DNA of 64,000 bases from Gracilibacillus salitolerans. GTDB lineage: Bacteria > Bacillota > Bacilli > Bacillales > Amphibacillaceae. Below are positions 3-56,353 of this stretch, piece by piece. The notes below the pieces were generated by a model, which was not told the origin of the DNA, did not search any database, and was given only the letters and a program-made list of their open reading frames with translations. Made by a program: the position numbers and the translations under genes. The stretch lies in assembly GCF_009650095.1 (NCBI RefSeq), contig NZ_CP045915.1:2728001-2792000 (forward strand). Reading direction: 5' to 3'. Every line of letters starts with the position of its first letter. Position 1 is the first letter of the stretch.

Positions 3-62
3 CAGGAAAGCCACGAATTCATGAAAAACTTCCATAAAAACAAAGATCCAGATTCTAACTAG
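3..62 (+). CDS. possible 3' end of an unidentified gene
   Basis: An open frame enters from the left edge and ends at a TAG at 60-62, giving a hydrophilic, Asn/Lys/Asp-rich tail of 19 residues. The next clear signal is a repeat at 131. I do not recognise the product, and 19 codons are too few to prove coding. In B. subtilis the gene beyond spo0A differs between strains and species, so synteny does not help. It could be noncoding. Confidence 0.25.
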   Translation, partial: QESHEFMKNFHKNKDPDSN

Positions 63-6268: not shown

Positions 6269-8167
6269 TCATGCCCTTTTTTGCTCATCATTACTTACGG
6301 CTAATAATTTTTTTAGTTCTACAACAATTTGCTCTTTTGTCAAATTTATTTCTTCAAGCAATTCTTTCACATTACCGTGCTCAATATACTGATCAGGAAT
6401 ACCCATTCTTTTCATTTGAGGGTGATATCTATTTTCTTCTGCAAACTCTAGAACAGCAGAACCAAATCCACCTTTAAGTACTGCTTCTTCCACAGTTAAG
6501 ATCGGGATATTTTTACGCATTCTGTCATGCAACATTTGTTCATCTAACGGCTTAATAAACCTTGCGTTAATTACTTCTACATGTATACCTTGTTTTTTCA
6601 TATATTCACTCGCTGCAAGAGACATGGCAATCGTAGTTCCAAACGTTAAAATAACTGCATCAGTCCCTTGTTTTAACACTTCCCATTTACCAATAGGCAA
6701 TGTTTTTAACTCTTGATCCATTTCTACACCTAACCCGTTTCCTCTTGGGAAGCGAACAGCAATAGGACCTTCATTATAAGAAATAGCTGTGTTCACCATA
6801 TGTTGGCACTCATTTTCGTCTTTCGGCATCATAATCACCATATTAGGTAAATGGCGTAAGAAGGCAATATCAAAAACTCCTTGATGCGTTTCACCATCAG
6901 CCCCTACTAGTCCTGCACGGTCGATACCAAATGCAACATTCAAGTTTTGGCGACAGACATCATGAACTAATTGATCATACGCTCTTTGTAAGAAGGTAGA
7001 ATATATCGCAAGAAAAGGCTTCATACCCTGCGTTGCCAGGCCAGCTGATAACGTAGTAGCATGTTGTTCTGCGATTCCTACGTCAAATAAACGATCAGGA
7101 TATTTTTCCTGAAATTTATCTAACTTTGAGCCAAGTATCATTGCGGGTGTGATCACTGCAAGTCGTTCTTCTTGTCCAGCAATATTTTCTAATGTATCAC
7201 TTACAACTTGGCTCCAAGCGGGCGCTGCATTAGCAGGCTTAATTTTTTCACCTGAGTCAATTTTATAAGGACCTACACCATGCCATTTATCTTTTTTATC
7301 TGATTCAGCAGGGTAATATCCTTTTCCTTTTTGCGTGATAACATGAACAAGTACAGGACCTTGTGTTTTCTTAGCGTATTCAATATTTTCTTCTAAATCT
7401 TTAAAATCATGACCGTCAACCGGTCCGAAATAAGTAAAGCCGAATTCTTCAAACAACATACCTGGAACCATAAAATATTTCATACTATCCTTTACTCGTT
7501 CTGCTGTTTGAGCGATCATACCACCGACCGCAGGAATTCTTTTTAACAGGATTTCTAATTCATCCTTGACACGATTATACTTTCCGGCACTTCTCATCCT
7601 TCCCAATGCATTGTGTAATGCCCCGACATTGCCTGCAATTGACATTTCATTATCATTGAGAATAACCGTGATATTTTTCTTCTCATGACCAATATGATTT
7701 AATGCTTCCAACGCCATACCACCTGTTAAAGCACCATCACCTATGATTGGTACAACATAATTACTATCTTTTTTCATATCACGAGCGATCGCCATACCCA
7801 TAGCTGCTGATAGTGACGTTGAACTATGGCCTGTTTCCCAAACATCATGTTCGCTTTCCGTCATTTTAGGAAAACCACACAGTCCTTTATACTGTCTAAG
7901 CGTATCAAATTGGTCTGTACGCCCTGTCAGCATTTTATGAATATAGGATTGGTGTCCGACATCAAAGATTAATTTATCTTCCGGACTATTAAATTGCTTG
8001 TGTAACGCGAGTGTCAGTTCTACTACTCCTAGATTAGCGCCTAAATGGCCACCGGTTACGGATAATTTTTTAATCAAAAATTGACGAATTTCACCGGCTA
8101 AGACTTCTAGTTCTTCCGCGTTTAATTGTTTTAGAAATGTTGGATTTTTTATCTTGGTTAGATCCAT
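6269..8167 (-). CDS. dxs: Dxs, 1-deoxy-D-xylulose-5-phosphate synthase
   Basis: Thiamine-diphosphate enzyme that condenses pyruvate and glyceraldehyde-3-phosphate, the first step of the MEP isoprenoid pathway. The 632-residue protein shows the TPP/Mg motif [15 protein letters not shown] with the paired N of NDNEMSI, and the transketolase central domain (about 315-480) containing [10 protein letters not shown] and the [15 protein letters not shown] segment. The start ATG at 8165-8167 follows GGAGGATTCCTTC; nine more upstream codons are open but lack a ribosome site. ispA and ispG, later steps in isoprenoid synthesis, are also in this window. Confidence 0.98.
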
Positions 8168-8202
8168 GAAGGAATCCTCCCTACTATTATTCAAGATTCG
8201 CC

Positions 8203-8781
8203 TTATTTATTAGACAATACTTTTATTTTAAATTTTTCTTCTAAAAATGCAATTATTTTACCAACAATAAAAATGATATTGGTTGATGAATGAATGGCTA
8301 AAAACTTACCCAATGCCTTTCCACCGACAGTTAAAGCGGCGACAAGGCTTGTAAGAATTACGTTTAAGGATAAATGAAAGGAGGTCCCTTCACCATATCC
8401 AAATCCATTCGAAAGTTGCAGTACTACGATAGCAGATGCTGTTCCACTTATTATACCAGAAATATCTCCAATTACATCATTACAAAAGCTGGCAAACCGA
8501 TCTGCATTTCTGACAATCTGTATCGCTTGTTTGGAACCGCTTACCCTCTCTGCTGCCATTGCATGAAATGGAACTTCATCTGCAGCAGTTGCTGCTATCC
8601 CTAGCATATCAAAAAACACGCCTATAAATACAATAATAAATACGATCACTAATCCAATGATCGACATTACTCCACTTAAGATGGATGAAGATACTATTGA
8701 AAAAATAGCCGCTAACACAAACGTGATAACGGCAATGCTTAAACTAAATTTCATCGACTTTTGCAGTTGTTGTTTATTCAT
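8203..8781 (-). CDS. oapA: OapA, membrane partner protein of OLE RNA
   Basis: A 192-residue integral membrane protein with three or four hydrophobic segments (about 15-35, 38-62, 105-125, 135-155). A motif after the second segment, [20 protein letters not shown], resembles the DUF21/CNNM region of magnesium transporters. Its position directly downstream of the OLE RNA and upstream of dxs is the diagnostic arrangement known from Bacillus halodurans, where OapA (OAP) binds OLE RNA and anchors it at the membrane. Work in that species links the complex to ethanol, cold and magnesium stress. Start ATG with GAGG 7 nt upstream. The family call rests on both sequence and context. Confidence 0.88.
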
Positions 8782-8811
8782 ATAAAAACCTCGTTAATTG
8801 GTTACATTATG

Positions 8812-9438
8812 TATACAGGAATGGAATGGTCATTTTCAAGGTAAAAACTGCGGCTTAGGTCCAGTAGGTTTTCCCAGACAGATACCGAGTGTTGCCACTC
8901 TGGCGGTTCCCCTTTAAACCTGTCTTAGCGCAGTCACCCAACGCTAGACTGGATTACCACTCAGTCCGCACTATAATCCCTTTTAAATGTCCTTACTTGG
9001 AACAGTCTAGGAGATTTCCTCAACAACCCTTAACCGTTTCCTAGCCTCTTTTGCAGTACGAATTTCATACAGAAAAACATGTCCTTAACTAGTGGCCATC
9101 CAGTTAGGAACACTTTGTTACCTGTAATCCCCTTCGCACCACTCAAGGCAGGCTACGCTACAAATAAGGATTCCCTGACCCTTATTACATAGGTTCATAC
9201 CCCATTCCATACTTCATTCTTGGCTAAGAATAAAATACAGAGATGGGCCTCCGCGGAAGAAGGGTCGTCGCCCACATGCCTTTGTGGATCGCCCTTCAAC
9301 CTTAACTCCCAGCATCGACCCAAGGCTGGGCGCCTCAAGCCGACACAAGGAACTTCATCGATGTGCCCTTTGGCGGATTTTTAGGCCCGCCTTCAGAAAC
9401 GGAGGATTGACTAGAATACTGCACCATCCCATTTACAT
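8812..9438 (-). ncRNA. ole: OLE RNA (ornate, large, extremophilic)
   Basis: A 630-bp stretch between ispA and oapA has no usable reading frame but is clearly more GC-rich than its surroundings and full of local hairpins. On the minus strand these include GGCGG/CCGCC near the 5' end, CCCAGC/GCTGGG, CCAGTCTAG-type stems in the middle, and a long 3' hairpin closed by AGACAG/CTGTCT that contains GCCAGAGTGGC. Length, GC-rich conserved 5' domain, and placement before oapA and dxs match the OLE RNA of extremophilic Firmicutes. The 5' end is inferred from the promoter at 9445-9473; the 3' end is approximate because the transcript may run into oapA. OLE forms a membrane ribonucleoprotein with OapA and other proteins. 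Confidence 0.9.
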
Positions 9439-9444
9439 ACTTTA

Positions 9445-9473
9445 AATATAACATGTTTCTTGTATTTTCACAA
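9445..9473 (-). promoter_or_regulatory. sigma-A promoter for OLE RNA/oapA
   Basis: On the minus strand TTGTGA (9468-9473), exactly 17 nt, then TATATT (9445-9450). It begins only 5 bp past the ispA stop codon, and the predicted start (near 9438) coincides with the beginning of the structured RNA. OLE can thus be made independently of the upstream nusB-ispA operon. Confidence 0.7.
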
Positions 9474-9478
9474 TATTA

Positions 9479-10363
9479 TTACTGGTTTCGCTCGCTTAAA
9501 TAATGACTTATCAAGGCCAAATCTGTATTTGCTAAACCTACCTCTTTCAAACATCGAACAGCCTCATTAACATATTTAGTTTTATATTGCTTAGCTCCCT
9601 CTAATCCTAGAATGCTTGGATAAGTGCTTTTCTCATTATCAATATCACTGCCAACACGCTTACCAATAAGTGTTTGATCACCCTCTATGTCTAAAATATC
9701 ATCTTGAATTTGAAATATGATGCCAAGATAATCCCCATAATTCTTTAAAATTTCCATTCTTTCTGATGATACACCCGCTAAGAGTCCACCAATTTCTACT
9801 GCAAATGAAATAAGTCTTCCTGTTTTCAAATGATGAATTCTTTCCAGCTTTGAAATGGAAATAGTCTGATTTTCTGCTTCCATATCCAAATATTGCCCGG
9901 CTACCATTCCTTCTAATCCACTTGCTTTCGATAACTTGGCAACAATGTTAACTTTCTCCTGATCTGTATATAAATCAGTAGTAGTAATAACGTGAAAACT
10001 ATTCGTGAGTAGACCGTCTCCAGCTAAGATAGCGGTTGCTTCGTCATACTTTTTATGATTAGTTAATTGTCCCCTACGGTACATATCATCATCCATAGAA
10101 GGAAGATCATCATGTATCAGGGAGTATGTATGAATCATTTCTAAAGCAACTGCAGCAGGATATACCTTCTGTGGATCTCCACCTAATCCTTGACACGTTA
10201 ATTTCATCAAAAGCGGACGTAATCTTTTTCCTCCTGCTTGAATGGAATATAGAACAGATTCTCTTAGTCGATTCGGCATATCTAATTCTGAAATGTAAGA
10301 CGTTAAAGCGGTATTTAATTGTTGTTGTTCTTTATCTAACAAATTTTGTAATGATTGATCCAC
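9479..10363 (-). CDS. ispA: IspA, farnesyl diphosphate synthase
   Basis: Prenyl transferase making farnesyl diphosphate from IPP and DMAPP or GPP. The 294-residue all-helical protein has the first Asp-rich motif DDLPSMDDD and the second QDDILD. The GTG start abuts the xseB stop (TAA then GTG) with AGGAGG 8 nt upstream, so translation is probably coupled. It ends the nusB/folD/xseA/xseB run; the OLE promoter starts just beyond its stop codon. Confidence 0.97.
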   Translation of the reverse strand: MDQSLQNLLDKEQQQLNTALTSYISELDMPNRLRESVLYSIQAGGKRLRPLLMKLTCQGLGGDPQKVYPAAVALEMIHTYSLIHDDLPSMDDDMYRRGQLTNHKKYDEATAILAGDGLLTNSFHVITTTDLYTDQEKVNIVAKLSKASGLEGMVAGQYLDMEAENQTISISKLERIHHLKTGRLISFAVEIGGLLAGVSSERMEILKNYGDYLGIIFQIQDDILDIEGDQTLIGKRVGSDIDNEKSTYPSILGLEGAKQYKTKYVNEAVRCLKEVGLANTDLALISHYLSERNQ

Positions 10364-55806: not shown

Positions 55807-55882
<76 letters not shown>

Positions 55883-55916
55883 AAACGATATGATGTTTTT
55901 CTACAATGATTATGTA

Positions 55917-56009
55917 TGGCGGAGGAGGAGGGATTCGAACCCCCGCGGGCCGTGAAGCCCCTGGCGGTTTTCAAGACCGCTCCCTTCAGCCGGACTTGGG
56001 TACTCCTCC
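55917..56009 (-). tRNA. tRNA-Ser (UGA)
   Basis: 93-nt gene with a long variable arm (CAGGGGCTTCACGGCCCGC), acceptor GGAGGAG / CTCCTCC, anticodon loop CTTGAAA and encoded CCA. Confidence 0.97.
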
Positions 56010-56013
56010 GCAA

Positions 56014-56090
56014 TGGTGGACCCTGCAGGATTCGAACCTGCGACCGATCGGTTATGAGCCGATAGCTCTAACCAACTGAGCTAAGGGTCC
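56014..56090 (-). tRNA. tRNA-Ile2 (CAU, lysidine type)
   Basis: 77 nt, anticodon loop CTCATAA. The body GGACCCTTAGCTCAGTTGG is nearly identical to B. subtilis tRNA-Ile2, whose C34 is changed to lysidine by TilS to read AUA. The true methionine tRNA is at 56201-56274 with a different body, so I call this one Ile2 rather than Met. CCA is encoded. Confidence 0.88.
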
Positions 56091-56107
56091 TTATAATATT
56101 TGTTATA

Positions 56108-56184
56108 TGGGGCGACCGATGGGGATCGAACCCACGCATGTCGGAACCACAATCCGATGTGTTAACCACTTCACCACGATCGCC
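56108..56184 (-). tRNA. tRNA-His (GUG)
   Basis: 77 nt with the extra 5' G (G-1) pairing with C73, typical of tRNA-His; anticodon loop TTGTGGT; CCA encoded. Confidence 0.97.
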
Positions 56185-56200
56185 ATCGTTATTTTTATAA

Positions 56201-56274
56201 TAGCGGCGGAGGGGATCGAACCCCCGACCTCACGGGTATGAACCGTACGCTCTAGCCAGCTGAGCTACACCGCC
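56201..56274 (-). tRNA. tRNA-Met elongator (CAU), CCA not encoded
   Basis: 74 nt, acceptor GGCGGTG / CGCCGCT, anticodon loop TTCATAC. It has elongator (G1-U72 wobble, D-loop as in B. subtilis), not initiator, features. The sequence after the discriminator A is TTATAA, so CCA must be added by the CCA-adding enzyme. The other five tRNA genes here encode it. Confidence 0.95.
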
Positions 56275-56278
56275 AAAA

Positions 56279-56353
56279 TGGCTCCACAGGTAGGATTCGA
56301 ACCTACGACCGATCGGTTAACAGCCGATTGCTCTACCACTGAGCTACTGTGGA
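56279..56353 (-). tRNA. tRNA-Asn (GUU)
   Basis: 75 nt, acceptor TCCACAG / CTGTGGA, anticodon loop CTGTTAA, CCA encoded. First gene of the operon. Confidence 0.97.

Follow-up and report, generated by a model that had tools for sequence, protein, structure and literature searches.

The DNA analysed here is a window of 64,000 nucleotides (nt) of the Gracilibacillus salitolerans genome (contig NZ_CP045915.1, positions 2,728,001 to 2,792,000); coordinates refer to this window. Between ispA, which encodes farnesyl diphosphate synthase (9479..10363, minus strand; NF045485, 385.5 bits), and dxs, which encodes 1-deoxy-D-xylulose-5-phosphate synthase (6269..8194, minus strand; TIGR00204, 930.4 bits), lie a large noncoding RNA and a membrane-protein gene. 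A sequence-only reading had noted at this place a hairpin-dense, noncoding stretch of about 630 nt, followed by a multi-pass protein, and had taken the pair for an intact OLE RNA-OapA system. The RNA is indeed OLE (Rfam RF01071) and the protein is OLE-associated membrane protein A (OapA). A full match to the OLE model, conserved base pairs, an intact OapA and the presence of the partner proteins OapB and OapC support that reading.

The OLE RNA is 634 nt long (8810..9443, minus strand). When all Rfam families were scanned over the whole window seven matches were returned, namely six tRNAs and one OLE; the latter runs from position 1 to 616 of the 616-position model, is not cut off and scores 526.5 bits (E = 1.4e-151) against a gathering score of 50 bits. 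A published split for full-length OLE lies at 390 bits, but was made with another model and serves as a guide only (PMC11332333; papers are cited by accession throughout, from portions of their text). The RNA is classed as full-length because helices at RNA positions 197-243, 252-286 and 295-400 correspond to full-size P7, P8 and P9 (P numbers assigned here), which the two variant classes lack or have only in shortened form. The match is unique in the genome, a single contig of 5.09 Mb that is 99.68% complete. The G+C content of the stretch is 0.47, versus 0.32-0.40 in segments clear of OLE, and the RNA folded alone reaches -240.3 kcal/mol compared with -194.2 for shuffled sequences (z = -6.1, 20 shuffles). 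Two loops deserve mention. The A-rich loop with CUAAAAAU (9376..9384, minus strand), the P4 loop of the electron cryomicroscopy papers, is described as an RNA dimer contact (PMC12265935, PMC12286853), and the palindromic GGCC of the P9 loop (9094..9097, minus strand) as the kissing loop of the OLE dimer (PMC12286853). In Bacillota, 2,822 hits have been reported for the class to which this RNA belongs (PMC11332333).

We compared the RNA with the OLE of the 80 loci whose OapA is closest to that of the window among the matches listed, a set that is not a sample of the class. OLE lies upstream of oapA in all 80 (nhmmer); the relatives are 69-95% identical to the window OLE and give, with it, 81 distinct rows. 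The loop sequence CUAAAAAU is present in 81/81 and GGCC in all eight of the commonest P9 loop forms, which account for 55/81 rows. The Rfam alignment supplies 159 pairs. In the window both partners exist for 158 of them, and 150 of the 158 pair in the standard way. Over the 158 pairs and 81 rows 92.4% of pair cells are standard, against 80.5% (maximum 81.1%) when partners were shuffled (200 shuffles) and 39-45% when the pairing was slid by one to three columns. Double-sided changes occur at 105 of the 158 pairs, with at most 86 in the shuffles. The shuffle test is inflated by kinship; the slide test keeps kinship but is biased towards a structure that was fitted to one row. The stems of OLE are kept by compensatory change, and structural constraint on the RNA is strong.

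The gene oapA (8203..8781, minus strand) is an open reading frame of 192 residues. Its product is 82-96% identical to the twelve best named matches, all of them from Gracilibacillus. The motif DxxxD (Asp102 and Asp106; 8464..8478, minus strand), described as a distinctive feature of OapA (PMC11332333), is found in 88/88 OLE-adjacent proteins, that of the window included, and in 10/10 of the OLE-free relatives discussed below. Fold comparison assigns OapA a CNNM-like fold; in a sequence search at E = 0.1, a profile of 18 OapA proteins matched none of the solved structures, so that the fold comparison alone makes this link. Two loci with full-length OLE carry a damaged oapA, one seemingly frame-split (G109:C1:2176544-2177108) and one with a single stop (G115:C61:69353-69916); both may be sequencing errors.

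The proposed search for OapB and OapC found both in the same genome. OapB is a 111-residue protein encoded between adk-like and infA-like reading frames, and its best match in the PDB is 'OLE-associated protein B' (E = 1.7e-32); a search of the genome with the KOW model did not list it, and it was found by gene order and the PDB search. An 88-residue L7Ae-like protein is encoded directly before an rpsL-like frame. Labels of the ribosomal, adk and infA neighbours are our reading of the translations. The best PDB match of the 88-residue protein is 3v7e (75.1 bits), followed by a YbxF entry (74.7) and, with 27.8 bits, YlxQ; from these scores we identify it as OapC/YbxF and not only the paralogue YlxQ. 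An initial indication that this gene was broken ('1 TAA inside') was rejected, the frame being whole and the TAA its own stop. The OLE RNA and the three protein partners published as essential to it are all encoded, and the OLE-OapA system is most likely functional in G. salitolerans.

Between the ispA stop codon and OLE lies a candidate promoter (9445..9473, minus strand) that reads TTGTGA, 17 nt and TATATT, with TG ahead of the -10 box (extended -10 TGTTATATT). A promoter scan gave seven sites where 7.9 were expected, so the candidate site by itself is no evidence. The relatives are more informative, bearing in mind that the 80 are not independent: in the 115 nt surrounding the start of OLE, TGnTAnnnT occurs in 80/80, compared with 17% of equally long stretches drawn at random from these loci, and TTGnnn-16..18-TAnnnT in 66/80, compared with 8%. 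The element is placed 24-31 nt before the conserved GGTGCAGTA of OLE in 73/80 and 35-36 nt before it in 3/80, and could not be placed relative to GGTGCAGTA in 4/80. No published report of an extended -10 element before OLE was found, the early OLE papers lying outside the search and the promoter passages seen of PMC12054373 dealing with cloning and T7 constructs. OLE is probably transcribed both from this private promoter and by transcripts that run on from ispA.

The oapA start codon is just 28 nt downstream of the Rfam match, a proximity that might suggest that OLE is chiefly a cis-acting leader for translation or transcription of oapA and not a trans-acting RNA. We consider this very improbable. 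OLE is long and conserved, the distance from the aligned end of OLE to the aligned start of OapA varies among the 80 relatives, between about 24 and 231 nt, and in Halalkalibacterium halodurans the RNA is reported to be abundant, membrane-bound and active as a ribonucleoprotein (PMC12265935). Elsewhere in the window the six tRNA genes are clustered (55810-56353, minus strand).

Our preferred interpretation, which we regard as very probable, is of a complete and most likely working OLE ribonucleoprotein locus, in which the RNA acts in place of CBS/CorC parts to tune the handling of Mg2+ and Mn2+. OLE would fold into its conserved structure and pair with a second copy through the A-rich loop and the GGCC kissing loop. 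OapA would hold the RNA at the membrane, with OapC bound at a k-turn near P5 and OapB at P12.2/P13. OapA itself may be a stripped-down membrane domain of a CNNM metal transporter, without the CBS and CorC parts; OLE would substitute for these regulatory parts and adjust Mg2+/Mn2+ handling, and hence stress tolerance. Into this model our computations put the RNA and its conserved structure, OapA and its fold, OapB, OapC and the conserved promoter-like element; dimerization, membrane binding, the partner sites and the stress and Mn2+/Mg2+ phenotypes are taken from papers on H. halodurans, and the behaviour of that OLE probably carries over to G. salitolerans. The size and conservation of OLE would also suit a ribozyme, for which a c-di-AMP synthase activity has been proposed by the discoverers of OLE (PMC11332333), with OapA a mere anchor. 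Neither the portions seen of that paper nor the other OLE literature covered reports catalytic activity, and we judge a ribozyme decidedly unlikely.

Several observations weigh against the interpretation as a working ribonucleoprotein. That OLE controls OapA is inferred. In H. halodurans the cluster is reported to be transcribed as one polycistronic RNA (PMC12265935), so that the private promoter is no more than a candidate. The stems, read earlier as intact, are so overall, with the exception of two adjacent uncompensated mismatches in a long-range closing helix. The pairs A460-A608 and A461-G607 (5' side 8983..8984, 3' side 8836-8837, minus strand; OLE 460-461 against 607-608) interrupt a helix of 11 pairs, in which 97.5% of the cells across the 81 rows are paired. 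The A-A and A-G combinations each occur in the window alone. At each of these pairs 3/81 rows are non-standard, the window included, the other non-standard letters belonging to L031 and L043 at one pair and to L012 (a Gracilibacillus) and L057 at the other.

These mismatches could mark the copy as a recent pseudogene, an explanation that we find barely credible. The match scores 526.5 bits, OapA is intact and in only 10/81 rows is the share of non-standard pairs lower than in the window. Six of the eight non-standard pairs are at positions that are non-standard in 42 to 66 of the 81 rows (gaps counted). Neither absence of an OLE match nor a general breakage of stems without compensation, the findings that would have spoken against the sequence-only reading, was observed.

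A further point against the preferred interpretation is that the genome itself encodes three MpfA-type transporters (L091:813-2132, L092:189-1499 and L093:504-1895), each with a CNNM domain, two CBS stretches and CorC_HlyC. Three MpfA in an OLE-bearing genome run counter to the reported anticorrelation of OLE and MpfA. We counted CNNM matches at E = 0.001 across the family, the full MpfA architecture being confirmed for the three proteins of the window genome only. OLE was matched in 111/159 family genomes searched (the remnant in G078 included); genomes with OLE have a mean of 1.62 CNNM matches (n = 111) and those without 2.52 (n = 48; P = 1.8e-8, uncorrected for kinship). The mixed genus g24 shows the opposite order (3.0 with OLE, n = 7, G078 included, versus 2.52 without, n = 21), whereas genus g26 follows the trend (2.0, n = 3, versus 3.0, n = 8); the loss of OLE is therefore not matched by a gain of MpfA in every lineage. 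The anticorrelation is true of the family and fails in some genera.

OLE might then be expressed but largely redundant, with the three MpfA covering the metal role and the RNA kept for one minor role or on its way out. The mean of 2.29 CNNM matches in the 17 genomes of the window's genus (up to five in one genome) is in line with this. So is the family relative G078 (L102:3797-4758; three CNNM matches), where OLE is reduced to a remnant of 394 nt and 133.8 bits, most of P9 and the 3' domain being gone and many pairs broken, and is followed directly by pieces of oapA with stops; there OLE and oapA are decaying together. On the other side, OLE and an OapA match are retained in 17/17 genomes of the genus, and the RNA is under the strong constraint described above. 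We regard redundancy as rather unlikely and retain the reading of a working OLE-OapA system.

The relatives also hold an OapA without OLE, which we call OapA2. A search of the family with the window OapA gave a second full-length open reading frame, 42-47% identical, in five genomes, together with two broken copies (L100, L101) and a fragment (L103); one of the genomes of this search, G034, belongs to the window's genus. With an OapA2 query five more sequences, taken as OapA2-like (L104-L107 and L109), were found in an order sample of 397 genomes, and a protein collection gave at least 27 clusters at 58% identity or more, the query's own included, among the 120 matches listed. The coordinates are L095:5114-5707, L097:5143-5739, L099:4924-5520, L104:1501-2133, L105:1501-2118 and L107:1477-2070, with further loci at L096, L098, L106 and L109. 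In direct comparison OapA2 is 41-48% identical to the window OapA. In the order sample three genomes (G190, G234, G260) have more than one OapA-like match each, and the best match of G190 (L113) adjoins OLE. The available text of PMC11332333 applies 'paralog' to MpfA and YlxQ only and that of PMC12054373 uses it within a reference; no published mention of OapA2 was found.

OLE was found near none of 12 oapA2 loci (10-11 kb searched for L095-L101, about 1.5 kb on each side for L104-L107 and L109) and beside the OapA-type genes at 80/80, 7/7 and 9/9 loci examined. In each of the seven family genomes with a whole or broken OapA2, a single OLE match lies elsewhere. In a FastTree phylogeny of 98 sequences the ten intact OLE-free proteins form one side of a split with support 0.88. 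Leaving out L107 and L109, which are more distant and pair with each other at 0.998, raises this support to 1.0. At sixteen positions, for example Arg91, Asp94 and Gly158, at least 95% of the 88 OLE-adjacent proteins share one residue, which at most 20% of the OLE-free ones have. Such positions may reflect contact with the RNA or simply descent.

Upstream of oapA2 a dyad, GTTKC-N6-GMAAC, is common, in most cases immediately following a -10-like box. With no more than one mismatch allowed, it occurs within 1.1 kb at 11/12 oapA2 loci, whereas all loci together (these included) give 146 hits in 974 kb and the approximately 500 nt before OLE contain it at 2/80; the stretches are unequal (500 against 1100 nt) and the count is not blind, the dyad having been first spotted by eye. 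As a more independent test, we compared these regions with a 16-base core of the MntR recognition sequence of the Bacillus subtilis mntH promoter (PMC9861239). The resemblance to that operator consists of candidate sites with two to four mismatches, 67-81 nt before oapA2, at four loci of four lineages: L104, L105, L095 and L106 have 2, 3, 3 and 4 mismatches at -72, -73, -81 and -67, with P = 0.0003, 0.0008, 0.0008 and 0.023 in random 200 nt. At 1000 nt L106 loses significance (P = 0.11), L104, L105 and L095 stay at or below 0.008 and the broken copy L101 gives 0.002. At several other oapA2 loci the dyad has diverged from the operator, with 4-5 mismatches, and for the most part lies further upstream. 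In genus g38 the dyad also precedes four feoA copies, of eight found in five genomes, with 2, 4, 4 and 5 mismatches to the core and approximate gene starts. The g38 loci are related, L098 and L100 being about 98% identical, and are thus not independent.

Weighing against a metal operator, the other 8/12 oapA2 loci are above P = 0.05 at 200 nt, the remaining 4/8 feoA copies found have no dyad and in the G140 genome as a whole the pattern shows no enrichment (10 sites, against eight for the reversed pattern). Nramp genes were of no use as a control, with one strong match (L116, 329.7 bits) and no such site seen by eye upstream of it. Genus g38 has in addition a leader before oapA2 (L099:4829-4885; also L098, L097, L096, L101 and L100). 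It comprises a GGTAGTNCAGGTANTTCA stretch, which L097 and L101 have in altered form, and a hairpin of 11 pairs whose loop is invariant; five of the pairs show double changes (five sequences). No Rfam family matches this leader at gathering level. Its core CCGGGGTGGTAGCCGG occurs in 6/115 loci, all of g38, and a 'mini-OLE' as a general RNA partner of OapA2 is not supported; the leader may be a local cis-regulator.

On poor carbon sources Mn2+ rescues H. halodurans lacking ole-oapA, and suppressors map to mntB, mntC and ykoY (PMC10898510). Together with the upstream motifs, this makes it plausible that an OapA without OLE is regulated by metal, which would support a metal role for OapA itself. 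We advance tentatively, as a serious possibility, that OapA is at root a transporter of divalent metal (Mn2+/Fe2+ or Mg2+) able to work without OLE, and that the OapA2 clade keeps DxxxD, has shed OLE and is under an MntR/DtxR-type operator shared in form with feoAB. If so, the sharp differences between OapA and OapA2 (Arg91, Asp94, Gly158) would mark what OLE requires of OapA. Comparison of the two could part the protein's own role, in metal handling, from its service to the RNA.

The locus itself is ordinary, a complete OLE-OapA of the known full-length kind, and adds one well-kept system in a single-contig genome to the class. It offers a test case, since the window's genus pairs OLE with several CNNM proteins counter to the reported trend, and since its relatives' OLE-free OapA clade looks metal-regulated. 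Compared with the full-length class of RF01071, the RNA shares the whole model, the A-rich loop, the GGCC kissing loop and the place before oapA between isoprenoid genes, and differs only by species-level sequence change and the two closing-helix mismatches. OapA resembles that of H. halodurans, as far as that protein is described in the portions seen of PMC11332333 and PMC12265935, in its four long helices, DxxxD, adjoining ole and CNNM-like fold; only sequence divergence is expected, the comparison being with a description. With respect to the CNNM Mg2+ transporters MpfA, CorB and CorC, OapA differs in that no CBS and no CorC_HlyC domain was found in it and in that its match to PF01595 (CNNM), at 18.6 bits, is below the Pfam cut-off of 28.4.
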